Source of the DNA: Candidatus Roseilinea mizusawaensis
Lineage (GTDB): Bacteria > Chloroflexota > Anaerolineae > J036 > Brachytrichaceae
Assembly: GCA_016841965.1 (NCBI GenBank)
Contig: JAEANN010000053.1
Location: 62,001 to 126,000 of the forward strand
Direction of reading: 5' to 3'
Length of the DNA: 64,000 nucleotides
Part shown: piece by piece, positions 28,235 to 52,127 of the stretch
Position numbering within the stretch: the first letter of the stretch is position 1
How the letters are laid out: every line of letters begins with the position of its first letter
Notes under the pieces: model-generated
What the model was told of the DNA's origin: nothing
Databases searched by the model: none
The model's input: only the letters and a program-made list of their open reading frames with translations
Translations under genes and position numbers: made by a program

Positions 28235-28269
28235 GGTCTGTTCTGGAAAGAGTCAGTTCGCTGCCGCAT

Positions 28270-29055
28270 CTACACGACATCTGCAAACTGGTGCTCCATG
28301 CGCTTGAAGAACCAGAAACCAAATCCTAACATCAGCGCGGCGACCACGGCCGACACGACAAGATATGGCGCGTGAAGGTCACCACTCAGCAGCACGGCGC
28401 GATAGCCCTGAATAACGCCGGCCATGGGGTTCAGAAAGTACACCCCGCGTAGATGCTCTGGCACCAGCGTGGCAGGGTAGATGATCGGCGTCGCGTACAG
28501 CCAGATTTGCAGGCCCAGTGCGACCAGATGTTTGACATCTCGATAGAAGACATTGACTGCCGCAGCGATCAAACCGACGCCCAGCGCAAGCGCCAACTGG
28601 ACTGCCAACAACACTGGCAACAGCAACAGGCCAGGCAGGTTCACCGCAGCCTGGTACAGCACCAGCAGGACAATCAGGATGCTGAAGGCGATGGCGAAAT
28701 CGACCAGGCGGGCCAGCAGGGCCGCAATAACCAGAATATCGCGCGGAAAGTAGATCTTGGTGACCAGGTTCATGTTGGTCACCAGCGATTCAACCATGTC
28801 GGTGATGGAAGCTGAGAACAACGTCCAGGGCACCATGGCTGCATAGGCGAAGAGAATGTACGGAATCCCGCCGGTGTCTACGCGCAGAAAGCGGGTGAAC
28901 AAGACGGTGAAGATCGCTACCGTGGCTGCCGGCTGAATGATCGCCCACAGCCCGCCCAGGATGGATTGCTGGTAGCGCGCGCGAACGATGCGGCCAGTCC
29001 AGGCGAACAGCAAGTCGCGGTAGTCATACAGCGTGCGAAAGACAAGGGTTGGCAT
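28270..29055 (-). CDS. wzm: ABC transporter permease for polysaccharide export, Wzm type
   Basis: This 261-residue integral membrane protein has six hydrophobic segments in the ABC2/Wzm arrangement. RARYQQSILGGLWAIIQPAA near residue 25 and LNPMAGVIQGYRAVLL near 220 are family stretches; the latter is the conserved NPM...(Y)R segment. It forms the channel through which finished polymer leaves the cytoplasm, driven by the adjacent Wzt ATPase. It starts with MPTLVFRTLYDYRDL. The upstream gap to the BNR protein gene is 63 bp. Confidence 0.9.
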   Translation of the reverse strand: MPTLVFRTLYDYRDLLFAWTGRIVRARYQQSILGGLWAIIQPAATVAIFTVLFTRFLRVDTGGIPYILFAYAAMVPWTLFSASITDMVESLVTNMNLVTKIYFPRDILVIAALLARLVDFAIAFSILIVLLVLYQAAVNLPGLLLLPVLLAVQLALALGVGLIAAAVNVFYRDVKHLVALGLQIWLYATPIIYPATLVPEHLRGVYFLNPMAGVIQGYRAVLLSGDLHAPYLVVSAVVAALMLGFGFWFFKRMEHQFADVV

Positions 29056-32235: not shown

Positions 32236-32809
32236 CCAATCTGGCGCAACGCGACTGACGCATCAGCATGACGTCGCGCGATGCTGAAGGGGTGGCTATA
32301 TTCATGGATCGATGAGCAACACAAAGTTCGCGTTATGCCATCAAATAAGCCTATTCGCCTACATTAACAGACGTAACCGGAAACAGGTATGACACTCTTC
32401 AGGTGTTCTATAACCATAAATCACTTGACAGCGCCAAGTGTTCCTGCTACCCTGACACGCGAGTCATCCAGACTGGCCTAAGCAATCTTAGTGAAACCTG
32501 CTTATGCTGGCCTGTTGCTCAAGCAAGCACGGACTTTCAGATACTTGGAAACACGGCTCAGGCTATCGCGAGGAGGCAATCAACCGGATACACCATTTGC
32601 AGTTCACGCACGATAGGGTGACCGCTTGGCTCGCCTGCAAGTACGCCGAAAACGCTGAAAGTTCGACTCCCAAGACAGGATTCCTGGCGCCCGCCTAACG
32701 GGTTACCAGATCATCTTGTGCCCTAGAGCACCACTAGGTTGTGATGCCGATTTGACCTCTTGCTTTCGGGCGGGCTGCCTGATCCAATCCACAAATGAGG
32801 GATGTACTG
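32236..32809. other. Divergent intergenic region between the EPS operon and the secreted-protein pair
   Basis: About 570 bp of lower GC content separate the divergent genes. It must hold the promoter of the 28-kb minus operon and that of the plus genes. A plus-strand TTGACA lies at 32425. On the minus strand TTGGCG and TATAGA near 32438-32412 could form a promoter with a 19-bp spacer. Perfect short dyads such as CCTAG/CTAGG near 32723 are present. Open frames of 64 and 72 codons here overlap each other, lack ribosome-binding sequences and are not called. Confidence 0.5.
32425..32453 (+). promoter_or_regulatory. Candidate sigma-70-type promoter
   Basis: A perfect TTGACA at 32425-32430 is followed after 17 bp by TACCCT (32448-32453), which matches the -10 consensus at only three positions. 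It points toward the secreted-protein gene at 32810, leaving a leader of about 350 nt. The -10 is weak, so this is only a candidate. Confidence 0.3.
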
Positions 32810-33685
32810 ATGCATTTGAGAAAAATCTGCGCCGCTAGTCTCAGCGTTCTGCTTGTCGGGGTCGTATGGTTCACGTTTATCGCCACTTCAGCCGGCCAAG
32901 GCATGGCCCACACGCCTGCCTCGACTTCAGACACTCATTTCGCATTCCTGCCGGTGGTGCTCTCAGCACCGACATCCCCACCAAGTGCCATCATCGCCGA
33001 CCATACAGTCGTTGACCGCTTCGATCAGATTCCCATGCCAATGGTTCAGGCGGCCTCAGCGCTGCGTGTATTGCAACTGCATGCTTCCACCGGCAATGCC
33101 GTCAGCAGCCAGGGTCTCAATTACCTCGACGGCACGCGAGACGGTTCGCCATACCCGGACTACCTGTACGACCGGCGCAACTGGGTCTTTGAGTGGTGGC
33201 CGGACACGATGGACAAAACGTTCAGGGCCAAGGTCGATCACTTTGGGCAGGCTGTGGCGGCGCGCATTGCCAACTACGACGTGTTCGGCATGAAGCTGTG
33301 CTATCAGGACTGGTTCGGCCTGGACTTTGCCTACTACCGCGATCGTATGCTGAGTCTTGAGCAAGCCTACCCGAACAAGAAGTTCATCTGGTGGACCCAG
33401 CCGATCCGCAATGACTGGAGCAGCCAACAGCCGGGCACCTGTGAGTTGCTGCAGAACTTCAATAACAATGTGCGCGCCTATGCGCTGGCCCACAACAAGC
33501 CGCTGGTTGACATTGCCGATATCGAATCCCATGACCCAGCCGGCAATCCGTGTTTCACGACCTGCGAGACAAAGTGCGCGCCGGTCTATGGCACCAATCC
33601 CCACCCCAACTCCGAACTTGCCATCCGCGTAGCCAAAGCCTATTGGTGGACCCTGGCGCGTGTGGCCGGCTGGGATGGAAACTGA
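32810..33685 (+). CDS. Secreted protein, SGNH-hydrolase-like
   Basis: This 291-residue protein starts with a signal peptide (CAASLSVLLVGVVWFTFIAT). The mature part has IIADHTVVDRFDQIPMPMVQ, resembling a family of uncharacterised secreted proteins that open with a DHT...IP...A segment, and HPNSELAIRVAKAYWWTLA near the C-terminus, which looks like the closing His block of SGNH esterases. The Ser/Gly nucleophile block is not obvious; the matching stretch reads LHASTGNAVSSQG. I chose the ATG at 32810 (TGAGGG 8 nt upstream) over the ATG at 32795. Four Cys near residues 238-250 may form disulfides. Esterase activity is a guess. Confidence 0.6.
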   Translation: MHLRKICAASLSVLLVGVVWFTFIATSAGQGMAHTPASTSDTHFAFLPVVLSAPTSPPSAIIADHTVVDRFDQIPMPMVQAASALRVLQLHASTGNAVSSQGLNYLDGTRDGSPYPDYLYDRRNWVFEWWPDTMDKTFRAKVDHFGQAVAARIANYDVFGMKLCYQDWFGLDFAYYRDRMLSLEQAYPNKKFIWWTQPIRNDWSSQQPGTCELLQNFNNNVRAYALAHNKPLVDIADIESHDPAGNPCFTTCETKCAPVYGTNPHPNSELAIRVAKAYWWTLARVAGWDGN

Positions 33686-33726
33686 TCTTGGCGTGTGGCC
33701 GGCTGGGATGGAAACTGATCTTGGCG
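33661..33726. repeat. 33-bp tandem duplication across a stop codon
   Basis: The unit starting TGTGGCCGGCTGGGATGGAA occurs at 33661-33693 and, identical, at 33694-33726. The first copy holds the last codons and TGA stop of the SGNH-like gene. Because 33 is a multiple of three, the second copy carries a silent duplicate of the same ending in the same frame. Confidence 0.95.
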
Positions 33727-33798
33727 TGTGGCAATTGGGCACAGTTTCGCTGATTCAACAAATGACCAAATGCCAAGATAAGCATATTGCAGCAATTT

Positions 33799-33833
33799 CA
33801 GGAAATAAAACACATCTTTTCAGGTATTTCCTG
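33799..33833. promoter_or_regulatory. Inverted repeat in an A+T-rich intergenic segment
   Basis: CAGGAAATA at 33799-33807 and TATTTCCTG at 33825-33833 are perfect 9-bp arms with a 17-nt loop. It lies 80 bp before the propeller gene at 33912 in an A+T-rich stretch. It could be an operator or an mRNA hairpin. No T-run follows. Confidence 0.4.
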
Positions 33834-33911
33834 ATCAACAGACTCACAATCCGGCAATATCCTAATTTATGCGCAACCGCATACGTTGGACTGGAGGTGC
33901 GCATCAGCACT

Positions 33912-36833
33912 ATGAAGATGAGTCTGTTTTGCTGCCGGCCATCAGGATTGACAGCACACGCCAGGTTAGGCACCCGACGACAGGTGCTCGCAATTACGCT
34001 AGCGCTCTCATTAGGTGTGGCAATCATTGCCAGCATGCCCCTGCCATCGCTTGCGACCGGCGCCCAGCGCAGTTGGCCGGCTGTCGCCGGCCCGGCGCAG
34101 AGCGGCGGGTACTACATGACATACTTGCCGGCCGTGTTGGCACCGCCACCACCGCCTGAGGATGGCTGGCCGATGGCCGCCGCCAACCCGGCGCGCACCT
34201 CGTGGACGCCCGAGGAAGTCACCGGCACACTGCGCATCGACTGGTACCGGCCCATCGAGGCTTACATACCGCAAAACGCCCAGGTAATCGCCAGCAACGG
34301 CCGGCTGTTCATCGCCACCTCGCGCGGCCTGATCGCGCTGAGCGCCGAGGACGGCAGCCTGCTGTGGCGCTATGACACCGAATTGCCGCTCGGCGGCTCG
34401 CCAACCGTAAACCGGGGCGTCGTCTATGTGGGCGGCTATGACCGCAGACTGCACGCAATCGACGTGCGCACCGGCGCGCGGCTGTGGGTCTTCGACGGCG
34501 CCAAAGCCGGCTACGACACCAATCCTCTGGTTGTCGAGAACAAGGTCATCCTGGGCAATCGTGACGGCTCGATGTATGCCATCGGCGCCCACGGCACAGC
34601 CGACCAGGGGCGCCTGGTGTGGCGATACACCGTCGGGGCACCCATTCACCTGTCTGCGGCTTATGACAATGGCATTATTTATTTCGCTGCAGCCGACAAT
34701 CATGCCTATGCCTTGCGGGCCGCCAACGGATCGCTGGTCTGGAAGTCAGGCCGGCTGCCCGGCGATGGTTATCACGCCTACTGGCCGGTCGTCGCCGGCG
34801 ACAAAGTCATCTTCTCCGCAGCGCCAGGTTACCGCACTGCCCTATCGCCAGGCACACTCAACGTCACCAGCGCCGATGGATATGGTTATGAGCAATCGCT
34901 CTACATGGACCGCGATGACCTTTTCCCCGGCGCTCCAGACGGCACACTGATCGGGCAGGTCATGAGCGGACAGGCATGGGCAAACGGCTTTCCCGTCATC
35001 GAGGTGTCGAGAATCGCCCAATACCTCGAGAACAACCCCAACGCACATCCCAATCTGCACAAGCCATGGCGCCGCTCGCTCGTCGCGCTGAACGCCGGCA
35101 ACGGCAGCGAATACACGTTTGATTCGGATGGTGATGGCTATGGCGAGCACCTCCCTGTCGCCTATTGGGGCACTCAGTCGGGCAACCGTTATCCGCCGAT
35201 CTACGGCCCGGACGGACTGCTTTACGTTGGAAACATTTACGAGAAGCGCTTCATCTCTCAGGGCCGTGTGATGGGCTGGAATATCAACGCGCCCACGCAG
35301 ATGAAATTGATGCGCGGCCAGGGCGCGATCGACGAGCCTCAATCCATTTCCGGCGGCGGTAACGTCATCTACCGCAGCATCGCTGTTGATCGCGTCGGCG
35401 ACTGGTTTAGCATTAAATCCCCCACCCAGAACGGGACGCTCTGGAGCTATAGCCAACCGCTCTTTCAGCAAGCGCCCGGCTATGACGTGATGTGGTGGAG
35501 CCCCGACGGCACGAATGACCCGGACCGCTTCCGCATGAACTATGGCGGCCCCAACGGCATCTATGACAACGGCGGGGTGCAGAATCCGATCGTGCCTTAT
35601 CGTGGCCGGCTGTACATTCACCGCAGCAATGCCGTCATCGCCTTCGGGCGCGGCAACGGGCCGGGGCAGCTTCCGCTCCTACGCGCCGTCCCGGCCACGG
35701 ACACGATTGCCACTCCGAGCGTGACCGACCTGAAGTCGCGTCTGGCCGAGCAGGTGGCGCGCATGGTGCAAACGCCGACCGTGTTTCTAAAGCCGGGCTA
35801 TTACAACGCCGGCCAGTTCAACGTCTTCCGCGAGCTGGCCGATTACTTCAACAATCCTGGCGAGACGCTGTACACACTGTCCATCGCCTATCCACACCTG
35901 CAGGCCGAACTTCAGTCTCAGGTCAAGAGCTACTTGCAGGCCTTCTTCACAACCTATTTCAACCCCGTCATGTACTCGCGCATGGGCTGGGTGGACGGCG
36001 TGCAACGCGAGACTGTGTTGATCCCGCCGGAAGTGCAGGCCGCCATGGCCGGGATGGGCAAACGCACGTCGCCGGGCAGCGGCTGGACCTGGAGCTATCC
36101 GCAGTTCAACTTCTACGCCATGTGGAAGTATGCGCAGATCGCGCCAGAGCACACAGTCACTTTGTACGACCTGGCCAAAAGCAAACTTCAAGTGCCTGTG
36201 CCGGCCTCTGCCGACAACGCCTACTTCGTGCAACGCATGTGGGAACTCAACGGCTGGATCGCCGGCTATATGGGATTCCTGCGCCTGCAAGAGCTGGCCG
36301 GCCGCGCGCAGGCCGACGCCGCCCTGCGCGCCCAGGTGCAAGCCGAGCTTAACCGGCTGCTCAGTGTGTGGGAAACCATCTTCAGCAAGGATACGCCCTG
36401 GGTCGATATGTGGCACAAACGCCATCTCAACTTTGCGCGCAGTTTCATCATGCTGACACCGGAACTCGGCGAGTACCTGCGGCTGGTCAAGCTGGCCGAG
36501 GTGCGCGCGGCGCTCGACGAATACAACCGGATCGGCCCCTACTGGTTCGTGGCGCGCTACGAGGCGGTGATGGACGAGGGCATCATGTCGAACCTCTACA
36601 ATTACCCGGCCCTGTTCCAGGCGAAGGCATTCATTCTCGGTGAGAACCGCAGCCAACTGACGAAATATCTGGATGTGCCGGCCTTTGCGCGCGGCGACCT
36701 GTTCTACATTCAAAATCTCGTGGCCGCCATCGAAGCGCCGGCCGGCCCCACAACCATGCTCGATTCAGATACGCCCGAGGCAGACGCCGCATCGGTGTGC
36801 GATCAGTCGTGCGAGGCCAGCGCGCAACCTTAA
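33912..36833 (+). CDS. Secreted PQQ-type beta-propeller protein with helical C-terminal domain
   Basis: The protein has 973 residues. A signal or anchor segment (VLAITLALSLGVAIIASM) is followed by PQQ/BamB-like propeller blades, each with a GxxYxxxxDxxLxAxDxxTGxxxW pattern, for instance VVYVGGYDRRLHAIDVRTG and FAAADNHAYALRAANGSLVW. After about residue 620 the sequence becomes helical and Trp/Tyr-rich (MWKYAQIAPEHTVTLYDLA), a domain I do not recognise. PQQ blades here are more likely structural or ligand-binding than cofactor-binding. GGAGGT lies 13 nt before the chosen ATG; the frame is open upstream to 33660, through the 33-bp duplication, but that part is not protein-like. It forms a pair with the gene at 32810. 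Confidence 0.75.
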   Translation: MKMSLFCCRPSGLTAHARLGTRRQVLAITLALSLGVAIIASMPLPSLATGAQRSWPAVAGPAQSGGYYMTYLPAVLAPPPPPEDGWPMAAANPARTSWTPEEVTGTLRIDWYRPIEAYIPQNAQVIASNGRLFIATSRGLIALSAEDGSLLWRYDTELPLGGSPTVNRGVVYVGGYDRRLHAIDVRTGARLWVFDGAKAGYDTNPLVVENKVILGNRDGSMYAIGAHGTADQGRLVWRYTVGAPIHLSAAYDNGIIYFAAADNHAYALRAANGSLVWKSGRLPGDGYHAYWPVVAGDKVIFSAAPGYRTALSPGTLNVTSADGYGYEQSLYMDRDDLFPGAPDGTLIGQVMSGQAWANGFPVIEVSRIAQYLENNPNAHPNLHKPWRRSLVALNAGNGSEYTFDSDGDGYGEHLPVAYWGTQSGNRYPPIYGPDGLLYVGNIYEKRFISQGRVMGWNINAPTQMKLMRGQGAIDEPQSISGGGNVIYRSIAVDRVGDWFSIKSPTQNGTLWSYSQPLFQQAPGYDVMWWSPDGTNDPDRFRMNYGGPNGIYDNGGVQNPIVPYRGRLYIHRSNAVIAFGRGNGPGQLPLLRAVPATDTIATPSVTDLKSRLAEQVARMVQTPTVFLKPGYYNAGQFNVFRELADYFNNPGETLYTLSIAYPHLQAELQSQVKSYLQAFFTTYFNPVMYSRMGWVDGVQRETVLIPPEVQAAMAGMGKRTSPGSGWTWSYPQFNFYAMWKYAQIAPEHTVTLYDLAKSKLQVPVPASADNAYFVQRMWELNGWIAGYMGFLRLQELAGRAQADAALRAQVQAELNRLLSVWETIFSKDTPWVDMWHKRHLNFARSFIMLTPELGEYLRLVKLAEVRAALDEYNRIGPYWFVARYEAVMDEGIMSNLYNYPALFQAKAFILGENRSQLTKYLDVPAFARGDLFYIQNLVAAIEAPAGPTTMLDSDTPEADAASVCDQSCEASAQP

Positions 36834-36843: not shown

Positions 36844-37920
36844 TCAGCCAAACACATAGCGATAGACTGAGCGAATCGGCAGCCTGGCTGCACCGGCCAT
36901 CAGCAGCGCCGGCCCGCCCATGCCCACCGCAAACAACAGCGGCTGCGCCATCGCCTGCAGTCCCAACACCGCCGGCGCGACCGCCATCATCAGCATGATG
37001 GCCAGATTGATCGCTACCAGATGCATCAAATAAAAACCATATGAACACTTGCCGATCCATTCAAACGTCTCGACCAGCGGAATCGCGTTGCGCCGGATGA
37101 GCGGCAGCAGGCCCATAAGCGCCACAGGGCACAGGATACGCGCCAGCGGAAAGCGGATGAAACCCAGCTCGTGCAGACACACAACGATGAAAAGCGCAAC
37201 CGTTGCAGCCAGCAACGCCCACTTGACACGCTGCAGTTGCGCCGGCACAGACCGCACGTGCAGGCTGTACAGCAGACCCAGCGGAAAGTAAATGGCCCAG
37301 TCGGCCAGCGACCGCCCGATCACCGGCGGGATCAACACGCGCAGCGACTCCGGCAGTTGAATCCCGAACATCACCGGGTAATGCAAGGCAATGAGCAAGA
37401 CCTGATACGCCGGGACTGCAAGCACAATCCAGACGCCATAACGCCGACCATACCGCGCCAGCAACGGCGACAACAGATACCAGAACACCAGCAACGGCAC
37501 GAAGTGATACGGATAGCCGACGATCAAATGCTTGACGTGATCGAGAAGGCTATAGGACTGAAGCCACGGATACGAATGGCCGGACAGTTGCTGAGCCGCC
37601 AGCAGCGCGTAGAACACACTCGACCACAAGACATAGGGCAGCACGATGCTGCGCAAGCGAGAGAGTGTTGTCTTGTAAGTCTGGAGCAAGTTGCTGCTTT
37701 GGCCGGCATAGGCCGCGAAACACCCGGAGATAAAAAAGAACGTCGGCACGGCAAACACGATGCCGAGTTGTTGCAGGATGGTCAGCAGGCCGCCCCATAC
37801 GCCTGCCGGCGGCGTCTCGCCCACCAGGCCCGGCCCCGCCAGGCCCAGCGTGATGGCGTGGTTCAGCACCACCAGGGTCATTGCCACGCCGCTCAACGCG
37901 CCAAATTGACGACCGATCAT
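36844..37920 (-). CDS. Acyltransferase family 3 membrane protein
   Basis: This 358-residue integral membrane protein has about ten helices. It opens with LSGVAMTLVVLNHAITLGL, where the His in LNHA matches the catalytic region of OafA/NolL-type O-acyltransferases, and continues to FFFISGCFAAYAG, the FFxxSG block of the family. Such enzymes move acetyl or another acyl group onto a sugar hydroxyl. It is the last gene of the minus-strand module with ACP and an AMP ligase, so the acyl group could come from that carrier protein. It converges with the propeller gene at only 10 bp distance, with no terminator in between. Confidence 0.82.
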   Translation of the reverse strand: MIGRQFGALSGVAMTLVVLNHAITLGLAGPGLVGETPPAGVWGGLLTILQQLGIVFAVPTFFFISGCFAAYAGQSSNLLQTYKTTLSRLRSIVLPYVLWSSVFYALLAAQQLSGHSYPWLQSYSLLDHVKHLIVGYPYHFVPLLVFWYLLSPLLARYGRRYGVWIVLAVPAYQVLLIALHYPVMFGIQLPESLRVLIPPVIGRSLADWAIYFPLGLLYSLHVRSVPAQLQRVKWALLAATVALFIVVCLHELGFIRFPLARILCPVALMGLLPLIRRNAIPLVETFEWIGKCSYGFYLMHLVAINLAIMLMMAVAPAVLGLQAMAQPLLFAVGMGGPALLMAGAARLPIRSVYRYVFG

Positions 37921-37948
37921 TGCTGCGCCTCACAAATTACGTCGGTGT

Positions 37949-38977
37949 TCAGTGTTGCGCCTGGGCGGCGCAGTTGATCGGCGCCGCGCGCAGATAGGCC
38001 GTCGTGCGCTGCTTGCGCAGCGTGTCGTTGATCACGCGCTCGACCTGCTCCGGCGTCAGCCCCAGCGCCGCCGCGATCTGCTCCACCGGCACACCATGCT
38101 CGTGCCCATACCACACCACATCGAGAATCTCAAACGGCACGCGGAAGAAGAACTCTTCCTGCGTGCTGCCGCCGCTGTATGTGTCGCTGGTGGGCGTGCG
38201 TCGCCGGATATCAGGTGGCACGTCCAGATAGTCGGCCAACTGGTATACCTGCGTCTTGAACAAATGCACGATCGGGTTCACATCCACGCCGCCATCGCCG
38301 TGCTTGACAAAGAAACCCAGACCGTGCTCGTTCTTGTTCGGCGTGCCGATCACGGCGTAGTTGCGCAACTCGGCGTGATAGTAGAGCATCGCCATGCGCG
38401 TGCGCTGCTTGAAGTTAGACGCAGCCACGATCTGGAAGTATTCAGCCGGCGGCAGGCGCCTGGTCATCTCGCGGCCATCAGGCGACGTGACAGTCAGCGA
38501 AAACACATTTAGTGTTTCCTTCTCCAGCAGGCTGCCCGGCAACACTATCTTCGACTTCCAACCCGGCCCAAAGTCGGGAAACACGCGCCGGATCGCCTCG
38601 TCACGCCGGCGGTAGCAGCCAAATCCCTCCAGCGCGCCGCTGATCTCTTCGATCACTGTCGCCACGCCATAGTGCTGCGCCAGCCGGAGTGCCAGATCGA
38701 TGCTGTCGGGGCTGGAATCCTTTTCTGGCAGCAGAATGCCGACCACGCGCTCCGCGCCGAAAGCCCGTGCGCACAGCGCCAGCACTGTGGATGAATCGAT
38801 GCCGCCGCTGATGCCGACGACTGCTCCCTGCCGGCGCAAGCGTTCGTTCACCGTCTGACGCAGCGCGGCGACGATGCGCTGAGTTTCCTGCGCCGCGTCG
38901 AGCGCCAGCGCATCTTTCGTAAACACGCGGCGGGCCTGCCCCCGGACAGTGTCCAGCGTATCTTGATTCGGTGTCAT
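37949..38977 (-). CDS. NAD synthase-like (NadE family) ATP-pyrophosphatase
   Basis: This 342-residue protein has the PP-loop VVGISGGIDSSTVLAL near residue 53 and NadE-type stretches NKNEHGLGFFVKHGDGGVDVNPI and YQLADYLDVPPDI. No glutaminase domain is present, so ammonia must come from elsewhere. Two features make a housekeeping role less certain: an insert around YRRRDEAIRRVFPDFGPGWK, and a location between an O-acyltransferase and an AsnB gene. Similar NadE-like genes occur in surface-polysaccharide loci. It could amidate a carboxyl on a sugar or carrier-bound group by the same adenylate chemistry. The reaction is not settled by sequence. Confidence 0.75.
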   Translation of the reverse strand: MTPNQDTLDTVRGQARRVFTKDALALDAAQETQRIVAALRQTVNERLRRQGAVVGISGGIDSSTVLALCARAFGAERVVGILLPEKDSSPDSIDLALRLAQHYGVATVIEEISGALEGFGCYRRRDEAIRRVFPDFGPGWKSKIVLPGSLLEKETLNVFSLTVTSPDGREMTRRLPPAEYFQIVAASNFKQRTRMAMLYYHAELRNYAVIGTPNKNEHGLGFFVKHGDGGVDVNPIVHLFKTQVYQLADYLDVPPDIRRRTPTSDTYSGGSTQEEFFFRVPFEILDVVWYGHEHGVPVEQIAAALGLTPEQVERVINDTLRKQRTTAYLRAAPINCAAQAQH

Positions 38978-39013
38978 GATGTTCTGTGCAAGAAAGCGCG
39001 CGCGACTTCAGTC

Positions 39014-39050
39014 GCCGGCCAGTCTATCGACTGCCGGCCAGTCTATCGAC
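39014..39050. repeat. 19-bp tandem duplication creating a stop codon
   Basis: GCCGGCCAGTCTATCGAC occurs at 39014-39031 and 39033-39050, separated by one base. The copies fall in different reading frames on the minus strand. The asparagine synthetase gene ends with the TAG supplied by the distal copy (39026-39024), so the duplication defines its present C-terminus. Confidence 0.9.
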
Positions 39051-41045
39051 CAGCTTGATCCGGTCATGACGCGCATCGCCGCGCCGGCGATCAAACGCTT
39101 TGACGAATTGTTGGTAGACCAACTGCGCCGACAGAACGCCAACGACCGCCATATCCTCCACTTCGCTCATGCGCGCGCCGCCGGCCGCCTTGCGCGCCAG
39201 TTGCGCTACTGCGCCGGCGTTGAATAACCCGCTCTCGCGCAACGCGGCTTCTGACAGAACGTCGCTCACCCAGTCTGGCGCGCGGCCGGCCAACCCATCG
39301 CCGAAAAAGCTGCGATGAATGGGAGCGCGGTAAGGGCGCTTAGGACGCTGCCAGATCTCGGGCGGCACCAGCTTACGGCCCAGTTGTTTGAGCAACCACT
39401 TCTCTGTCAGGCCGCCCAACTTCACTGTCGATGGCAGCCGGTTGCAGAACTCGATCACGCGGTAGTCCAGGAACGGGAAACGCCCCTCCACTGAGTGCGC
39501 CATCGCCGGGCGGTCTCCCTGCGACGACAAAAGATACTGCGATAGAAAAACCGAAATCTCCAGATATTGCGCCTGCGCCAACGGAGACCAACGGGAAAAC
39601 TCCAGCGGAAGCGGCGGCCAGGCGACATCGTGCGCATTGCCCAGCGCATCGTCTGTGTTGTGTGCTCTGTGCTCTGTGTTCTGAAGAAACCGCCGCGTGC
39701 GAGCCGTGTTCGTCCAGCGGATCATGTGCGAGTAATACGGGGAGTCCACTTCTGTCAGACCGCGCTTGAAGAACGCTGCCAGATAAGCGCCGCTGACGCT
39801 GTTCAGGTCGGTGATGTCGGGATAGAGCCGGCGCAATAACGCGGGGCGCATCCTCGAATCTGGCTGTCTGGCCCAAAACCGCCGCACCGCCATCTCTTTG
39901 AAGATGTCGTAACCGGCCAGGAATTCGTCAGCGCCTTCGCCGGTCAGCACCACTTTCATGTTGTGCTGCCGCACCAGGGCTGACAGCAAAAACATCGGCG
40001 CCGGCGATGCGCGCAGGATGGGCGTCTCGGTGTGCCACACCACCTCTGGAAACACGCGCCCGATGTCGGCAGGGGTACACTCGACCACGCGATGGTCTGT
40101 GCCCAGGTGGGCGGCCATGCGCTGCTGGAACGCACTCTCGTCAAACTCTGGGTTGTTGACGAAGGCGATCGAGAAGGTGTCGAGCCGGGCATTGGTGTCG
40201 CGCCGGATAATCGCAGTGGTGGTGGATGAATCCAGGCCGCCGCTCAAGTAGGCACCCACCGGCACGTCGGCGCGCAACCGGATGCGCGTTGCGTCGACCA
40301 ACAAGCTCTCCAGTTCGTCGAGATAGTCCTGCGCCGGCCGGCGCGCAGACGCAGCCGGCTCCTCAAAGTTCAGGCGCCAGAACGGTTGGGCCTGGCCGAC
40401 TGGCTCGCCCGGTCGCGCCAGCAGATAGTGCCCCGGCGGCACATCCACAATCCCGCGAAACGCCGTGTGCGGCGACAGCGTGCTCCAGTAAGTGAAGATT
40501 TGATCGAGCGCCTGCGGATCGATCTCGGCCGTCACGCCGGGCGCAGCCAAAAGGGTCTTGATCTCCGAGCCGAAGATCAGCCGGCCATCGTGCTGGGTAT
40601 AGAACAGTGGCCGAACCCCAACCCGATCGCGCGCCAGCAACAGGCTGCGCTCCTGCGCGTCCCAGATCGCCACGGCAAACTGCCCATTCAGCAGATTCAG
40701 GCATTCCGGGCCATAGTCTTCGTACAGATGCACGATGACTTCGGTGTCGCAATTCGTGGCAAAGCGATGCCCGCGCTTCTCCAGTTCAGGGCGCAACTCC
40801 ACGTAGTTGAAGACCTCGCCGTTGTAGACGATCCAGACCGTGCCGTCTTCATTGCCGATGGGCTGATCGCCGCCCTCCAGGTCGATGATGCTCAGCCGCG
40901 CGTTGCCCAGGCCAACGTGCGCGTCGCGGTATACGCCAAAGCCATCCGGCCCACGATGCCGGATCATGCCCAGCATGTCCATGAGAACCGACAGCTCGAC
41001 CGGCGGGCGATCTGCCAGATTTAGCACGCCAACAATTGCGCACAT
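39024..41045 (-). CDS. asnB: Glutamine-dependent asparagine synthetase-like amidotransferase
   Basis: This 673-residue protein starts MCAIVGVLN, with the catalytic Cys2 intact. The class-II amidotransferase domain (RHRGPDGFGVY, then NGEVFNYVELRPEL) is followed by a synthetase domain with SGGLDSSTTTAII. It resembles the amidotransferase 1 of exosortase-type EPS loci. A low-complexity stretch QNTEHRAHNTDDAL is encoded by a short repeat of GAGCACAGA-like units near 39650-39690 and looks inserted. The 19-bp duplication at 39014-39050 sets the stop. It lies between NadE-like and AMP-ligase genes on one strand, which suggests amide formation on an activated acid. Confidence 0.87.
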   Translation of the reverse strand: MCAIVGVLNLADRPPVELSVLMDMLGMIRHRGPDGFGVYRDAHVGLGNARLSIIDLEGGDQPIGNEDGTVWIVYNGEVFNYVELRPELEKRGHRFATNCDTEVIVHLYEDYGPECLNLLNGQFAVAIWDAQERSLLLARDRVGVRPLFYTQHDGRLIFGSEIKTLLAAPGVTAEIDPQALDQIFTYWSTLSPHTAFRGIVDVPPGHYLLARPGEPVGQAQPFWRLNFEEPAASARRPAQDYLDELESLLVDATRIRLRADVPVGAYLSGGLDSSTTTAIIRRDTNARLDTFSIAFVNNPEFDESAFQQRMAAHLGTDHRVVECTPADIGRVFPEVVWHTETPILRASPAPMFLLSALVRQHNMKVVLTGEGADEFLAGYDIFKEMAVRRFWARQPDSRMRPALLRRLYPDITDLNSVSGAYLAAFFKRGLTEVDSPYYSHMIRWTNTARTRRFLQNTEHRAHNTDDALGNAHDVAWPPLPLEFSRWSPLAQAQYLEISVFLSQYLLSSQGDRPAMAHSVEGRFPFLDYRVIEFCNRLPSTVKLGGLTEKWLLKQLGRKLVPPEIWQRPKRPYRAPIHRSFFGDGLAGRAPDWVSDVLSEAALRESGLFNAGAVAQLARKAAGGARMSEVEDMAVVGVLSAQLVYQQFVKAFDRRRGDARHDRIKLVDRLAGSR

Positions 41046-41082
41046 GCTCCACCCGTTCTCAACTCAAACGTCGCGCGCGACC

Positions 41083-42612
41083 CTACTTCAGATCCGTCTT
41101 TTTGATCTTGCCCGAAGAGGTCTTGGGCAACTCAGCCACGAACTCCACGTATTTGGGAACCATGAAGTCCTCAAGGTTCGCGCGGCAATGGCGGATCACC
41201 TCCGCTGCCGTCAGCGTTTGACCGCCAGACACCACCACGAATGCTTTCACCGCCTGCCCCAGCAGCGGGTCAGGCACACCAACCACAGCCGCCTCTGTCA
41301 CGCCCTTCAACTGGTACAGGACGGTCTCGACTTCCTTCGGCGCCACTTTCTCGCCCCGGCTCTTGATGATGTCGTCCTTGCGGGCCACGAAGTACATGTA
41401 GCCTTCCTCATCGGTGCGGAAAAGGTCGCCGGTGAAGCACAGTCGCTCGCCGGGGATCGGGCCGGGCCGGTAGCGCCTGGCTGTCATCTCGGGATCGCCC
41501 CAGTACCCGCGCATGACATGCCGCCCACGCGCCACCAGCTCGCCTGTGCTGCCATTGGGCAAGCGGTTGCCCGCTTCATCAACCAGCCACACCTCGGTGC
41601 CCGGAATGGCAATTCCAACCGACCCCGGCCGCACGTCGAGTTGCTCCGGCGGCAGATACAATGTGCGCTTGGTCTCGGTCAGGCCATACATGGAGTACAG
41701 CCGCGCCCAAGGAAACTTGAAGCGCAGTTCGGTGATGTGCGCCGGCGGGAGGGCAGCCGCAGTATTCGTCAGGTAGCGCAGGCTCGACAGGTCATAGGGG
41801 CTGAGATCCATCTGCACCAGCACGGCATACAGGGTCGGCACACCCGGGAATCCGGTCACGCGCTCTGCTTCGATGCGCCTCAGGATTTGGGCCGGGAAGG
41901 CGAATCCCTTCTCCAGCACCAGCGTGCCGCCGAACTTGAACACCATCAGCAACTGATACAACCCGTAGTCGAACGAGAGCGGCAGCACATCGATCACAAT
42001 ATCGTCTTCGGTGTTCTCCAGATATTCGATGATCGAACTGGCGGCGAACACCACGTTGCTGTGATCGGACATCACACCTTTCGGGTCGCCGGTGCTGCCG
42101 GAGGTGTAGATCAGGCAGGCCAGGTCCAGGTCGATGTTGTGATGGCGGGGCCGCGTGGCCTCGAAATGCGAATCGACATCTGAAAAGGTGAGAGCCTCTG
42201 GCAGGCTCGAATGGTTGTCGAACGGCTGGGTCAACACCACCGCGCGCAGAGAGGGCGCCTGACTGGCCACGTCTGCCATCAGGCCGGCCTGCGCGCCGGC
42301 GCCGATCAGCGCGCTCGCCTGACAGTTGTTGAGGATATACAACAGCTTGTCGCGCTTGGTGGTGTGGTTGATTACAACAAACACCGCCCCGGCCTTGAGT
42401 GCCGCGAAGATCGACACCACCAGTTCAACGCTGTTCGGCAGGTAGGTCACGACGCGGTCTGCGCGCCGCAAACCTTTCGCCATGAGCGCGTGGGCAAGCC
42501 GGTTGGCGCGCGCTTCGATTTCGGCATACGTCAGGCGCTGGCCGTCGCACACCAGTGCAATCTTGTCCGGCAGCCGGTCTGCGCTCGCTTCAAGGAATTC
42601 TTGCACCAGCAT
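41083..42612 (-). CDS. AMP-forming acyl/aryl ligase (ANL superfamily)
   Basis: This 509-residue adenylate-forming enzyme has the phosphate-binding A3 motif CLIYTSGSTGDPKGVM, LYSMYGLTE for A5, the TGDLFR Asp motif, and the C-terminal KTSSGKIKKTDL that holds the catalytic Lys. It activates a carboxylic acid as acyl-AMP and would load the acyl carrier protein encoded 70 bp upstream, or CoA. It is like the ligase found with exosortase-type EPS loci. The ATG at 42612 has AGGAG 8 nt upstream, better than the ATG at 42636. The acid is unknown. Confidence 0.88.
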   Translation of the reverse strand: MLVQEFLEASADRLPDKIALVCDGQRLTYAEIEARANRLAHALMAKGLRRADRVVTYLPNSVELVVSIFAALKAGAVFVVINHTTKRDKLLYILNNCQASALIGAGAQAGLMADVASQAPSLRAVVLTQPFDNHSSLPEALTFSDVDSHFEATRPRHHNIDLDLACLIYTSGSTGDPKGVMSDHSNVVFAASSIIEYLENTEDDIVIDVLPLSFDYGLYQLLMVFKFGGTLVLEKGFAFPAQILRRIEAERVTGFPGVPTLYAVLVQMDLSPYDLSSLRYLTNTAAALPPAHITELRFKFPWARLYSMYGLTETKRTLYLPPEQLDVRPGSVGIAIPGTEVWLVDEAGNRLPNGSTGELVARGRHVMRGYWGDPEMTARRYRPGPIPGERLCFTGDLFRTDEEGYMYFVARKDDIIKSRGEKVAPKEVETVLYQLKGVTEAAVVGVPDPLLGQAVKAFVVVSGGQTLTAAEVIRHCRANLEDFMVPKYVEFVAELPKTSSGKIKKTDLK

Positions 42613-42684
42613 GATGTCATCTCCTGCGCCGCACACTGTTGTTTTGCGATATGGTAAGCGCGGAATGAGTCCACAGCCGGCAGG

Positions 42685-42939
42685 TCAGACCGCCGGGGAC
42701 TTGCGCCGAACGTAGTCTGCCAGCCGGCTCACCGAGTCGAAGTTGTCCGGGACCAGATCCTGATCTTCCACTGCGATGCCAAATTGCTTCTCCACAAAAC
42801 TCACCAACTCGAGCACATTCATCGAGTCCACAATGCCTTTGTCGAGGAACGACGCATCGTCTGGATAGGGATACCCGTTGTCATTAAAGAGAATGTTGTT
42901 GGAGATGTATGTTTTGATGGTTTGCTCCACACTGCTCAT
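42685..42939 (-). CDS. Acyl carrier protein
   Basis: The protein is 84 residues long and acidic. It has the phosphopantetheine site GIVDSMNVLELV, where Ser (about residue 39) would take the prosthetic group. It is a stand-alone carrier, separate from fatty-acid synthesis genes, and most likely works with the ligase at 41083-42612. The ATG at 42939 has GGGGAG 5-6 nt upstream; the frame is open to 42966. It is the first gene of the module that runs to 36844. Confidence 0.88.
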   Translation of the reverse strand: MSSVEQTIKTYISNNILFNDNGYPYPDDASFLDKGIVDSMNVLELVSFVEKQFGIAVEDQDLVPDNFDSVSRLADYVRRKSPAV

Positions 42940-43035
42940 CTCTGCTCCCCAAGTCTGATTGCACAACTAGCTACCCCACAGATTTGAAAACAGTGACTGA
43001 TTGCCCGTGTGCCGCTTACTGGCTCGTCTTGTCAC

Positions 43036-43178
43036 GGCGCGAAGATGCGGCGCGAAGACGCGGCGCGAAGACGCGGCGCGAAGATGCGGCGCGAAGACGC
43101 GGCGCGAAGACGCGGCGCGAAGACGCGGCGCGAAGATGCGGCGCGAAGATGCGGCGCGAAGACGCGGCGCGAGAGCGG
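43036..43178. repeat. 13-bp tandem array, ten to eleven copies
   Basis: Ten full units of GGCGCGAAGAYGC lie head to tail from 43036 to 43165, then a partial degraded unit. Position 11 alternates between T and C in the order TCCTCCCTTC. The array fills most of the 233-bp gap between the carrier-protein gene and the epimerase gene. Since 13 is not a multiple of three, all three plus-strand frames stay open through it and give Arg/Ala/Glu-rich phantom frames. Confidence 0.95.
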
Positions 43179-47924: not shown

Positions 47925-49772
47925 CTACGCCGATTGCGACCGCGCCGACTTCGGCCGAGGTAACTGCGACGGCTTGTGCTTCGGCGTCTCCCTGCCCCAT
48001 TTCAGTGTTGCCAGCGCAATCTCCACAGCCGATCGAACCACTGACAGGCTGTTGATGCTCTTCAGGTAAGTCATGATCGGCCCTGGCCGGAATGCCCACT
48101 CGCGGAAGGCGCGCTTCTGCCAATACTCCATCTCTTCCGCGGTCAGCCCTGGGTAATCCAGCACGGTCGACTTGTCCATATCCACTTCCTCCCATTGCGT
48201 GCCGGCTCTGAACCAGTTGTTCTCCAACACGTCGAAGAAGAATGGCGTACCCGGATAAGGGGCAGCGACGTGGAACAGCGCGATATCCAGTGGCAGTTCC
48301 TTAGAGAACTTGATCGTCTGCCGGATCGTCTCGACCGTCTCGCCCGGCAGTCCAATGATGAAATAGCCCCAGTTCTTGATGCCGGCGTTGTGCGCCCAGG
48401 TAAGGGCGCGCGGCGCCTGCTCCATGCGATAGCCCTTGGCCGCCCGTTTCAGGATTTGCTCGTTGGCGCTCTCGATGCCCCACGAGATGTAGGTGCAGCC
48501 CGACTTGCCCATCATCTTCAACATTTCCTCGTCGACGTAGTCCACGCGGCTGTTGCACGTCCAGGTGATCTTCATGCCGCTATCGAGAATCGCCTGGGCG
48601 ATGCCCATGACCTGATCGCGGTTCACGGTGAACAGGTCGGCGTACATGTGGACGTGGTGCACCCCCAGGTCGTACAGCACCTTGATCTCTTTCATGATGT
48701 TTTCCGGAGATCGCAGTCGTATCGAATACTGATAGCTGACGTGCTTGATGCAATACTTGCAGCCGGCGGTGCAGCCCCGGCTCGTCACGATGAACGTGTA
48801 CGGCCCCTTGATCATGGGGATGCGATACTTGTCGAACGGCAGCAGGTGATGCGCTGGTATCGGCAGGTCATCCAGATTGCGGATGAAGGGCCGGTCGAAG
48901 TTGACCAGCACTTCATTGCCCCTGCGCCAGGCCAGCCCCCGAATGGAAGCGAGTTGCGCATGGGTCACCGGCATGCGCGAGTCACTGATCGGCGCTTCAA
49001 CATCCTGCACTGTCCAAGCCGGCCGCCAAGTTGGGTCCGCATCGCGCATCATCCGGCGCATCAAGCCGTCCGCGTCAGCCGGCTCGCCCTCCGGCTTGAC
49101 CAACGTGCCATCGTCGGTGATGGACCATAGTTTCAGCGCGGTCATGATGGTGTCCATCAACTCGCGCAGAGTCAACTCCGGCTCGCCGCGCAGCACGAAG
49201 TCCAGCGCCGGGTACTGCTCCAGCGTCTGGCGCGGCATGGGCGTCACATGCGTGCCAAAGCCGATGGTGATCGCACCCAGGCTGCGCGCCAGAAAGGCGC
49301 CATACATGTCGTTGGTGAGCGTCGGCGCTGTCACCTGTGTGAGGTAGAAGCGCGGGCGTTTTTCGCGCAAAAGCTGCTCGAACTCGGCCCAACTCATGCG
49401 CAGGGCATTTGCGTCAACGATCTCGACGCTGTAGTCTTCGAGCAGCATGGCGGCCATCTGAGCCAGCTCAATCTGCGGCCACACCATGTTCTCGCGGCTA
49501 CGCCGGCCCACCCGATGCTGGCTGCGAATCCAGATCGTGCCGTCGGGCGTTGGCGGGTTCACCAGAAGAATGTCAACGTTATGCTTCGGTCTCAGAATGC
49601 CCTTGGCGCGCACCGCCAGATCGGCGTCGGGAAATTTTGGGTTCGGCAACGATTTCAGCGCCCGCGTGCCGAGGTTGAGTTTCAGTTGCTCTTGAAGTGA
49701 TAAATCGCCGCCCGGCTTGCCGTTGCGCGGCCGGTTGCTTTCAGTTTGTTCAATTCGTGGTTGCTCGCTCAT
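47925..49772 (-). CDS. B12-binding-like radical SAM protein
   Basis: This 615-residue protein starts with a cobalamin-binding-like Rossmann domain (VDILLVNPP, then VEIVDANALRMSW). The radical SAM core follows, with the [4Fe-4S] ligands C334, C338 and C341 in TSRGCTAGCKYC, and a helical end. The DxHxxG histidine that binds cobalt in many family members is not visible. Members of this group methylate or rearrange diverse substrates, so the reaction is not predictable; modification of a lipid or sugar is plausible from context. The gene starts behind an A+T-rich promoter region with two contiguous dyads (49838-49871). Confidence 0.82.
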   Translation of the reverse strand: MSEQPRIEQTESNRPRNGKPGGDLSLQEQLKLNLGTRALKSLPNPKFPDADLAVRAKGILRPKHNVDILLVNPPTPDGTIWIRSQHRVGRRSRENMVWPQIELAQMAAMLLEDYSVEIVDANALRMSWAEFEQLLREKRPRFYLTQVTAPTLTNDMYGAFLARSLGAITIGFGTHVTPMPRQTLEQYPALDFVLRGEPELTLRELMDTIMTALKLWSITDDGTLVKPEGEPADADGLMRRMMRDADPTWRPAWTVQDVEAPISDSRMPVTHAQLASIRGLAWRRGNEVLVNFDRPFIRNLDDLPIPAHHLLPFDKYRIPMIKGPYTFIVTSRGCTAGCKYCIKHVSYQYSIRLRSPENIMKEIKVLYDLGVHHVHMYADLFTVNRDQVMGIAQAILDSGMKITWTCNSRVDYVDEEMLKMMGKSGCTYISWGIESANEQILKRAAKGYRMEQAPRALTWAHNAGIKNWGYFIIGLPGETVETIRQTIKFSKELPLDIALFHVAAPYPGTPFFFDVLENNWFRAGTQWEEVDMDKSTVLDYPGLTAEEMEYWQKRAFREWAFRPGPIMTYLKSINSLSVVRSAVEIALATLKWGRETPKHKPSQLPRPKSARSQSA

Positions 49773-49837
49773 TCCAGCCCAGCCATACTTCGCATCATAA
49801 TCATAATTTACTTTGCTAAAATAACAAGATTAAGCGC

Positions 49838-49871
49838 CTTTAGCATCTAAAGAACAATTTTTACAATTGTT
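49838..49871. promoter_or_regulatory. Two contiguous perfect dyads upstream of the radical SAM/regulator operon
   Basis: CTTTAG-CAT-CTAAAG (49838-49852) is followed with no gap by AACAATT-TTTAC-AATTGTT (49853-49871). Both are perfect inverted repeats in a 100-bp A+T-rich island in otherwise GC-rich DNA, 66-100 bp upstream of the ATG at 49772. The second could also serve as a weak terminator for the gene that ends at 49910. Operator function is inferred. Confidence 0.5.
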
Positions 49872-49909
49872 TTGTGGCGGCAAGCGCACTCAAAGCAGGC
49901 ACGCAGAGG

Positions 49910-51223
49910 CTACAGAGTGCTACTGCCTTGCAGATCGAGGTGTACTTGCGCATCACGCCGGCTCAGCTCATCCAGCACACGCATAACAATAAAGGAGATC
50001 ACAAACTGCATACCGACCAGAATCAGCATCGTTGCGCCCAGCAGCCACAACCACAGGCGTGACATGTCCCAACCACCGAAGCTGAAGAAGAACGAGACGA
50101 CGCCGACTGCTAGCCCCGCGATGATAAACATGCCCCCTATCCACCAGAAATGGCGCTCCAGCGGGCGGGCGAAAATCGGTCGGCCAAACATGCCTTGCCG
50201 AATTGGGCGCTTCTGAAACAGCGTCACCAGATAGTTGAACATCGCGCCCAGATTGAACAAGCTGACGCCTGCCACTGCCGAAACCAGCGCCGTCGTCACA
50301 GCGAAGACACCCCACCGGTCGATCTCTGTGACGCCGCTCAGCCGGGCCACCAACAGACTACCCAGAGTCAGCACAGCCAGAGCAACGCCGGCCATCCCAA
50401 TCAGGCCAAGGATGCGAACAGGGTTGTACGCCAGCGCCGTCCACAGGATCGCATTCAGAAAGCGCATTCCATCGCGAATCACGCCGAGCTTAGAGTCCCC
50501 CAGCCGCTCGCTGTGGGGAATCGGCACCTCGGCTAGCTTGAGGTTCTCGTGGATCGCCCGGGTGCTCATGGCAGGCGTAAAGTTCAGCCCGTCGGGGAGT
50601 GGATAAAGCGCCGGCAGCGCTTCACGACGGAAGACGCGCATGCCACTGGCGACATCCGTGACCTGCGTATTGCCGATCAAGCTGACCAGCCGGGCAAACA
50701 TGAAGTTGCCGACCTGCCGCACGAGCGGGCTGTCATTTTTGGCGCCGGCCATGCGCGATCCCACGCACATGTCTGCGCCCTTCATCACTTCACCACACAG
50801 TTGAGGCAAGTATTCGGGCGGGTACGTGCCGTCGGCATCCAGAAACGCGAGCAGGTCGCCGGCGGCGACGCGAAACCCCGTCTTCAGCGCGCCGCCATAG
50901 TTGCGGTTGACTTTGTGCTGCACCAGCCTGACGCCGGGGTAGCCGCGCACGATGTCGGCCGTGCGATCCTTGCTGCCATCGTCCACGACGATGACCTCGA
51001 AGCCGGCGATGCCGGTTGCCTTGACAGCCGGCCCCACTGCCAGAACACGCTCCAGAATGTCAGCGATGCCATCTTCTTCGTTGTAGGCCGGGATCACCAC
51101 CGACAAGGTGTGCTCGGCTGCTGCCCATCCTTCGGCAGCGCTGCGCGCCGGGCCAGGCGCGCGTGCACTGTCTCTACTTCTGCCGGCGCTGCCCAAAGCA
51201 ACGCCACTGCTGTATGTGCCCAT
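49910..51223 (-). CDS. Membrane-anchored GT2 glycosyltransferase (GtrB/ArnC-like)
   Basis: This 437-residue protein has a 38-residue Ala/Ser/Arg-rich N-terminal extension. Next comes a GT-A domain: LSVVIPAYNEEDGIADIL, VVDDGSKDRT, NRNYGGALKTGF, the DAD of FLDADGTYPP, VGSRMAG. At least four C-terminal membrane helices follow. This is the GtrB/ArnC type that transfers a sugar to undecaprenyl phosphate, or a closely related enzyme. The ATG at 51223 has GGAGGAG 5 nt upstream, which supports the long N-terminus. It would supply lipid-linked sugar for GT39-type enzymes. Confidence 0.86.
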   Translation of the reverse strand: MGTYSSGVALGSAGRSRDSARAPGPARSAAEGWAAAEHTLSVVIPAYNEEDGIADILERVLAVGPAVKATGIAGFEVIVVDDGSKDRTADIVRGYPGVRLVQHKVNRNYGGALKTGFRVAAGDLLAFLDADGTYPPEYLPQLCGEVMKGADMCVGSRMAGAKNDSPLVRQVGNFMFARLVSLIGNTQVTDVASGMRVFRREALPALYPLPDGLNFTPAMSTRAIHENLKLAEVPIPHSERLGDSKLGVIRDGMRFLNAILWTALAYNPVRILGLIGMAGVALAVLTLGSLLVARLSGVTEIDRWGVFAVTTALVSAVAGVSLFNLGAMFNYLVTLFQKRPIRQGMFGRPIFARPLERHFWWIGGMFIIAGLAVGVVSFFFSFGGWDMSRLWLWLLGATMLILVGMQFVISFIVMRVLDELSRRDAQVHLDLQGSSTL

Positions 51224-51287
51224 TCAGCTCCTCCACAACTCGCCAGACGATCCGGCGACCGATCTCACTGTCGCGTCCATCGGGCTT

Positions 51288-52127
51288 TCAGGCCATGTAC
51301 ACGGGTGCTCGGCGTCTGGCCGAGGCACGCTTTGCGGTTTCGGGTGTGATCTCGCGTATCAGCCGAGCCGGCACGCCACCCACCACTGTATGAGGCGCAA
51401 CATCCCGCGTCACCACTGCGCCGGCTGCAACTACCGCGCCTTTGCCGACCGTGACCCCATCCGTAATCACCGCCCCTGAACCGATCCAGACATCGTCTTC
51501 GATCACAATCCCCTCGGCAGTGATGCCCTGTTCCACGAATGGCCGGGCCGGATCATCGAACACATGATTCACCGCGATAATCTGCGCCAGCGGCGATGTG
51601 TAGACTCGGTCGCCGATGGCGACGCCACCCTGACCACGAATGACGTTCATCTCACCGATCAGGCAATCGGCGCCGATGGTGATGCCGGAGTGAGGCAGGC
51701 TGCGAAAGTTGTACACATGCAGCACGCTGCCATGCATGACATAGGTGCGCGGACCGATAGTGACACCGTGGGGGCAGGCATGAATGTATACCCCCTGGTC
51801 GATATAGCTGCTCCGACCGAGACTAATACGACTGGCAAAGCACAATCGCACGCCGCGCTCGATGGCGGCCAATCCATCCATATGCAGGATCAAGCGATAC
51901 ACAAACGCGCGCAGCCCGATCCCCACAATGCCGGGAACCCACCCCGCCGCCGCCTGAATGACCTGCTCCCGCACATATCGACCGACACTGTCTGCTTGGC
52001 GACTGAGGTACAGCCGAACCAGATGGGATGCAGAACGTTGCGCTGCAAAAGAGCGCGCTGCAAAAGAGCGCGCTGCAGGGGCGCCGGCCCCGGCCTGATG
52101 GTGGGGGCGCTGGTCGAGCGCTGTCAT
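51288..52127 (-). CDS. Left-handed beta-helix (hexapeptide) O-acetyltransferase
   Basis: This 279-residue protein has hexapeptide repeats from about residue 85 onward: [69 protein letters not shown]. The order is that of maltose/galactoside O-acetyltransferases, which take acetyl-CoA. The likely catalytic His is in [10 protein letters not shown]. The N-terminal part carries a repeat-encoded ARSFA stretch. I prefer the ATG at 52127 because GGAG lies 9 nt before it; ATGs at 52190 and 52292 are open alternatives. It would acetylate the surface glycan. Confidence 0.82.
52042..52077. repeat. In-frame 15-bp tandem repeat in the acetyltransferase gene
   Basis: Two full units of GCTGCAAAAGAGCGC and a partial third. 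On the minus strand each gives five residues (ARSFA) near the N-terminus. The period is a multiple of three. Confidence 0.85.

Follow-up and report, generated by a model that had tools for sequence, protein, structure and literature searches.

A carrier-protein, ligase, AsnB, and NadE-like gene cassette in an exopolysaccharide locus of Candidatus Roseilinea mizusawaensis: a possible cross-phylum route to carboxamide acyl groups

We analyzed a 64,000-nucleotide stretch of the Candidatus Roseilinea mizusawaensis genome (assembly GCA_016841965.1), referred to here as the window. It sits on contig 16 of the 3.86-Mb assembly, which is 99% complete, and it contains a large exopolysaccharide locus that encodes sugar transferases, GT4 and GT2 enzymes, a protein with a Wzy_C domain, and a transporter of the Wzm/Wzt type. 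Two GT4 genes (6026 and 8619) that an earlier sequence-only reading had pointed out are both real. That reading had also described five consecutive minus-strand genes at 36844-42939; all were found there, and Pfam and NCBIfam models confirmed their families. The range it gave for the module is correct for these genes, but the module reaches further, to a protein with an SGNH fold. The genes considered here are as follows.

42685-42939, minus strand: acyl carrier protein (ACP, 84 aa) with a GIVDS-M phosphopantetheine site (PF00550, 27.7 bits)
41083-42636, minus strand: AMP-forming acid-activating ligase of the ANL superfamily (PF00501 and PF13193)
39024-41045, minus strand: AsnB-type glutamine amidotransferase with a Cys2 glutaminase domain and a synthetase domain (PF13537, PF13522, and PF00733)
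37949-38977, minus strand: NadE-like ATP-pyrophosphatase, ammonia-type, PRK00876 subfamily, with an insertion of approximately 60 aa (PF02540, 174.9 bits)
36844-37920, minus strand: integral membrane acyltransferase-3 (AT3; PF01757, 80.9 bits against a cutoff of 31)
32795-33685, plus strand: exported SGNH/GDSL-fold protein of a family that recurs beside the cassette

Computational family assignment was clear for AsnB (TIGR01536, 513 bits; cutoff 267) and for the NadE-like protein (NF002048/PRK00876, 469 bits; cutoff 313). For the ACP, the best NCBIfam models were small-molecule or lipid ACPs, with every score below its cutoff; its start is most likely the ATG at 42939, although a TTG at 42966 could give a longer form. 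The sequence-only reading had counted two ammonia-using enzymes. This stands for the NadE-like protein and not for AsnB, which carries its own glutaminase domain; this leaves the NadE-like protein as the one enzyme that would depend on ammonia, either free or supplied to it.

We scanned species genomes using the NadE-like protein as the seed, which yielded 80 loci, and added 7 loci from Chloroflexota genomes. Because the NadE-like gene alone was the seed, linkage to the ACP, ligase, and AsnB genes was not selected for. Linkage was counted on those 43 of the relatives' loci in which 6 kb or more of sequence flanks the NadE-like gene on each side (the adequately flanked loci), using mechanically called open reading frames and neighbor clusters named from a few representatives. 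The ACP gene lay no more than 5 kb from the NadE-like gene in 40 of these 43 loci, the ligase gene likewise in 40, and AsnB in 36. AsnB was not nearby in L046, L082, L086, L092, L093, and L124; many locus contigs are short, so a missing partner is weak evidence. At least two of the three partners lay within 6 kb in 42 of the 43 loci, all three in 33, and none in 0. These counts do not represent independent events, since a single genome or a set of close relatives supplies more than one locus in some cases (L042 and L058 are one contig) and metagenome assemblies are the source of many. The grouping of ACP, ligase, and AsnB with the NadE-like gene is not due to chance. The earlier reading would have been refuted by a lack of conserved linkage among relatives; the linkage is instead strongly kept, both in Chloroflexota and well beyond that phylum.

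By record title, the loci belong to Chloroflexota, Cyanobacteria, Acidobacteriota, Bacteroidota, Zixibacteria, Calditrichota, Myxococcota, Planctomycetota, and others, with isolates represented in Chloroflexota, Acidobacteriota (Geothrix), and Bacteroidota. A plasmid search returned 116 further records, nearly all from Alphaproteobacteria; 76 of them were Sinorhizobium, including pSymB of S. meliloti 1021, where the NadE-like gene is at NC_003078.1 1450615-1451568. On plasmids of Mesorhizobium, S. meliloti, and Azospirillum, the annotated cassette genes stand directly next to one another. The distribution is patchy: the NadE-like protein exceeded the subfamily cutoff in 8 of 301 sampled Chloroflexota genomes and was strong in 3 of 28 genomes of the host's family. 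The window NadE-like protein is nearer to cyanobacterial copies than it is to many of those from Chloroflexota, which suggests horizontal transfer, and the cassette is probably horizontally mobile. Distances among the core proteins were correlated (NadE-like with AsnB, r = 0.81; AsnB with ACP, 0.83; NadE-like with ACP, 0.69; NadE-like with ligase, 0.52), and these values were reached by 0 of 999 permutations. Such correlations are as expected if the cassette proteins move together; a shared organism history gives the same result.

The sequence-only reading would have been undermined had the NadE-like gene encoded the sole NAD synthetase of the genome. It does not: a second, full-length glutamine-dependent NAD synthetase of 670 aa is encoded elsewhere (NF002730, 906 bits; cutoff 473). 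The AF2 model of the NadE-like protein (pLDDT 90.8) has the NadE fold, with 2e18 as its best match. We compared the protein with 18 ordinary Chloroflexota NadE sequences. Both groups have the ATP/PPi loop (SGGxDS), N188, R192, R194, G211-T212, E217, D228, and K241, as well as the GTxNxxE and GD motifs, so that the two share their fold, the core that binds ATP/PPi, and several residues of the substrate region. The cassette enzyme differs in three respects. Position 222 is Phe where ordinary NadE has Tyr; in the segment at approximately 264-282, the P2-loop region, another conserved stretch stands in place of the positions that ordinary NadE conserves; and the insertion of approximately 60 aa has conserved residues of its own (Y122, R124, R125, D126, K143, and I144). 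In human NAD synthetase (PMC6946656), Tyr525 packs against the nicotinate ring, and a mobile P2 loop shuts the site, closing on nicotinate and ATP; we matched these two features to position 222 and to 264-282, respectively, by eye in the alignment. From these differences, we infer an altered carboxylate substrate, with ATP-dependent amide formation retained.

It is very improbable that the NadE-like protein is in the operon by happenstance and is an ordinary NAD synthetase or an enzyme that makes NMN or a similar nucleotide amide. The residues and motifs common to ordinary NadE fit such a role, as does the Francisella NadE homolog that acts on NaMN (PMC3376133). Against it stand the second NAD synthetase, the distinct P2 loop and insertion, and the almost constant presence of ACP, ligase, and AsnB genes nearby, which is itself a difference from NadE. 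Public records label copies of the NadE-like gene NAD(+) synthase, and this may mislead metabolic models.

In AsnB, Cys2 and the SGGxDS loop are conserved at 97% or more across 63 alignment rows; glutamine-derived ammonia and adenylation are therefore expected. The nearest PDB sequence is 7ylz, a hydroxyamidotransferase. In glutarimide polyketide pathways, AsnB homologs are proposed to amidate ACP-bound malonate (PMC7756379), which resembles the cassette in that an AsnB homolog would act on an ACP-bound diacid, whereas the cassette has no PKS, has a ligase rather than an acyltransferase for loading, and adds the NadE-like enzyme. The ligase has an A4-type motif (SFDYGLYQ in the window) whose Asp is present in 44 of 67 alignment rows. 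In ANL enzymes, the A4 Asp is typical of amino-acid activation. By this A4-like motif, the ligases fall into two active-site classes, one with the Asp, to which the window protein belongs, and one without it, so their substrates may differ. An Arg follows the TE motif within 4 residues in 65 of 67 rows. Together, the A4 Asp and this Arg suggest a charged substrate but are not decisive.

The sequence-only reading had likened the ligase and the amidotransferase to enzymes of exosortase-associated exopolysaccharide loci. As a family resemblance this is borne out, since the ligase and AsnB match TIGR03098 and TIGR03108, respectively, over nearly their full lengths; both matches nevertheless fall below the model cutoffs (499 bits against 592, and 434 bits against 817). 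The absence of exosortase and decarboxylase that it had noted extends to the whole genome. Exosortase EpsH (PF09721) had 0 matches in the genome, in a search that was positive in one control genome, and the associated PLP decarboxylase (TIGR03099) had 0 matches at an E value of 0.001, with positive results in 13 controls. PEP-CTERM (TIGR02595) had 0 matches in the genome and also 0 in the control genomes. The cassette thus shares related ligase and AsnB families and an exopolysaccharide setting with the XrtA-associated genes (TIGR03098, TIGR03108, and TIGR03099) but differs in lacking exosortase and decarboxylase, in its sub-cutoff scores, and in the added NadE-like gene. That it is a degenerate exosortase/PEP-CTERM module minus its sortase is barely credible and already largely refuted: the near end-to-end matches favor it, while the scores, the lack of PF09721 and TIGR03099 matches in the genome, and the separate linkage group that the NadE-like gene defines in many phyla all speak against it. 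Judged from these comparisons, the exosortase link is a distant family resemblance of the ligase and AsnB only, and the cassette is a separate system.

PrmC enzymes methylate the side-chain amide of glutamine. A PrmC/HemK-type methyltransferase gene adjoins the cassette in Chloroflexota, Geothrix, Calditrichota, Bacteroidales, Sinorhizobium, and Mesorhizobium. The encoded proteins scored 167 to 212 bits with TIGR03534 (cutoff 199), and all exceeded the TIGR00536 (hemK_fam) cutoff of 115.5. In each of the seven whole genomes with a cassette-linked gene of this type that we tested, there were exactly two TIGR03534 matches, and where coordinates could be mapped, one of the two sits at the cassette. 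The cassette copy is therefore a paralog and not the sole housekeeping PrmC.

The SGNH-fold protein was recognized as part of a wider family when four separate neighbor clusters and the window protein fused under iterated HMM search. Two spurious-looking matches from L124 were removed from the first alignment. S98, G100, D239, and H270 are invariant in the family, and the window protein has a hydrophobic N-terminus. Its AF2 model (pLDDT 82.9) gave a VIA Z score of 15.8 to 4ppy (174 residues) and a Z score of 13.5 to the OatA catalytic domain (5ufy). S98 is placed as the Ser nucleophile after strand 1 and H270 as the C-terminal His, as in the SGNH fold; block V reads DGGH or DSH in many relatives and NPH in the window, and the invariant D239 is a separate Asp. 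The family is rare, at approximately one to four copies per genome, and the best copy is at the cassette in most genomes searched, several of which were preselected for having the family. SGNH proteins adjoin the cassette in several phyla, and the gene was within the fetched flank in approximately 15 of the 43 adequately flanked loci, a count that the two weak L124 matches inflate by one.

An AT3 gene is near the cassette in 22 Chloroflexota loci and is linked to it only in that phylum. In 14 loci it directly follows the NadE-like gene, with which it co-diverges (r = 0.75). Since AT3 linkage is confined to Chloroflexota and the SGNH gene is found in about one-third of the adequately flanked loci, neither belongs to the core of the cassette. 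In L057, the order is ACP, ligase, AsnB, methyltransferase, NadE-like, SGNH, and AT3 in a single run; in the window, the SGNH and AT3 genes are on opposite strands and so do not form a single operon. In the first helix of the window AT3, Ser takes the place of the Arg of the R-X10-H motif, and approximately half of the relatives have Arg; this Arg has been described as absolutely conserved in AT3 proteins (PMC9833829). Characterized AT3 proteins use acyl-CoA as the donor, not ACP (PMC9558356). Both points weigh against the AT3 step. Conceivably, an ACP donor might relax the need for a CoA-binding Arg, yet about half of the relatives retain it. Relative to the AT3-SGNH O-acyltransferases OatA and OafB, the window is alike in pairing an AT3-family membrane protein with an OatA-like SGNH fold; it differs in that the two proteins are encoded by separate genes on different strands, that an ACP and a ligase of their own are close by, and that the motif has Ser for Arg.

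Another known system for comparison is Dlt teichoic acid D-alanylation, in which an MBOAT takes D-Ala from a carrier protein and hands it via DltX to the SGNH protein DltD (PMC12148441). Both systems have an AMP-forming ligase that would load a small carrier protein, a linked exported SGNH protein, and an adjoining membrane acyltransferase. The cassette differs in having AT3 (PF01757) rather than the MBOAT DltB, in the extra AsnB and NadE-like genes, and in its exopolysaccharide locus. No DltB-type MBOAT gene is next to the ligase and ACP genes, the two PF03062 matches of the genome being on other contigs, and the window ACP scored 23.6 bits with the DltC model NF003464 (cutoff 68). Because these MBOAT and DltC features are missing, we did not classify the cassette as a Dlt system. 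An MBOAT partner was also considered for the loci without AT3 and rejected: MBOAT proteins occurred in 10 of 22 genomes, and none was seen at the cassette, with coordinates compared by eye and some contigs unmapped.

The candidate delivery enzymes differ by lineage. Condensation-carrier-thioesterase (C-PCP-thioesterase) proteins are beside the cassette in cyanobacteria, Acidobacteriota, and some Chloroflexota (one representative per cluster scanned), WS/DGAT-type acyltransferases are at the cassette in Myxococcota and relatives, and GNAT proteins adjoin it in Alphaproteobacteria. The first two types would suit a small secreted product, NRPS-like, signal, or siderophore-like, instead of a glycan substituent. 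We consider such a product quite improbable, given that polysaccharide genes flank many cassette copies, including those of the window, Azospirillum, and Sinorhizobium. Against a glycan role, homologs of the window's glycosyltransferases were detected in only 41 of the 87 loci, many of these loci being short.

The GNAT proteins bear on another alternative, in which the amidated acyl-ACP would be consumed inside the cell: before export, an amino sugar would be acylated by a soluble N- or O-acyltransferase of the hexapeptide-repeat or GNAT type, and the window's AT3 and SGNH would carry out some unrelated modification. A hexapeptide-repeat transferase (51288-52292 in the window), a GT2 enzyme, and a B12-radical SAM protein form a block upstream of the ACP gene in approximately 10 Anaerolineae loci, and this, together with the acyl-CoA donor of characterized AT3 enzymes, is consistent with such use. 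We nevertheless consider it unlikely, because of the 14 loci with AT3 right behind the NadE-like gene, the co-divergence of the two, and the recurrence of SGNH beside the cassette in several phyla.

The earlier reading had offered, as one possibility, a carrier-bound acid that is amidated and then passed to the glycan, and this is partly supported. We regard it as an even call that the conserved cassette places an amide-bearing acyl group on its dedicated ACP, that such acyltransferases take it over, and that in the window it decorates the exopolysaccharide of the locus. The ligase would adenylate an acid, probably an amino acid or a dicarboxylic acid, and load it on the ACP as an acyl thioester. 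AsnB, with glutamine, and the NadE-like enzyme, with ammonia, would convert free carboxylates to carboxamides, and in lineages carrying one, the second PrmC-type enzyme may N-methylate the amide. A lineage-specific transferase would then deliver the acyl group; in Chloroflexota, AT3 and SGNH would fit outward O-acylation of an exported glycan. By analogy, the best reading of this scheme is a parallel to Dlt D-alanylation with AT3 replacing the MBOAT. The computations establish the identity of the genes, their conserved linkage and correlated divergence, the conservation of catalytic residues, the SGNH fold, and a second PrmC copy in each genome tested for it. Within the scheme, we infer which acid is used, whether amidation comes before or after loading, what the acceptor is, and that AT3 and SGNH act on this acyl group.

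The earlier reading knew of no described pathway with this exact set of genes, and our literature searches for the gene set likewise found no description. Tentatively, and with slightly less than even confidence, we propose an undescribed cross-phylum pathway for ACP-bound carboxamide and N-methylcarboxamide acyl groups, in which an NAD-synthetase paralog and, in some lineages, a release-factor-methyltransferase paralog have taken on the modification of acyl-ACP, while transferases that differ by lineage pass the product on to surface glycans or other acceptors. If true, amides would be added to acyl groups by a carrier-protein route before these groups reach surface polymers, and paralogs of NAD synthetase and PrmC would have been recruited to acyl tailoring. 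The cassette copy on pSymB is in a genetically tractable strain, S. meliloti 1021, which makes the question directly testable.

The exopolysaccharide locus in the window contains further genes outside the cassette of ACP, AMP-forming ligase, AsnB, NadE-like and acyltransferase-3 (AT3) genes:

100-2127, gene that fuses SIS, nucleotidyltransferase and HAD hydrolase domains
23007-24836, second gene of the AsnB type besides the one in the cassette
33660-36833, long ORF for a PQQ-type beta-propeller protein, convergent to AT3
47925-52292, B12-binding radical SAM, GT2 and hexapeptide-repeat genes

The domain fusion at 100-2127 suggests that the window glycan includes a heptose-type nucleotide sugar.

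The block of radical SAM, GT2 and hexapeptide-repeat genes stands ahead of the ACP gene in approximately 10 Anaerolineae loci; in the window, the two are separated by genes for an epimerase and a BNR-repeat protein and by a regulator-like gene. Part of the gap between the epimerase and ACP genes, upstream of the cassette, is filled by a tandem array of a 13-base unit (43035-43172, 10.6 copies, 96% match). The equivalent gap in the close relative's locus L047 holds a different array, with a 36-base unit in 4.9 copies. These arrays possibly provide phase-variable spacing, or they may simply be unstable DNA.

Homologues of the beta-propeller protein (950-1137 bits) occur at the equivalent position in three relatives' loci that hold NadE-like genes (L059, L066 and L102). 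The start of its ORF in the window is only putative, because it is overlapped by a perfect 33-base repeat (33658-33732, 2.3 copies), which also lies at the 3' end of the ORF for the exported SGNH/GDSL-fold protein.

Other lineages carry variants of the cassette. In four loci from Zixibacteria and Krumholzibacteriota (L082, L086, L092 and L093), the ACP and ligase genes are flanked by two NadE-like genes, the second of which is 38-40% identical to the window copy, and AsnB is absent nearby. In S. chiapasense (L134), the second, cassette-linked PrmC-type methyltransferase and a GNAT-like gene adjoin the cassette, whereas in S. meliloti CP050512 (L136, region 11182-28358) a minCDE-bearing stretch splits the cassette from both genes.
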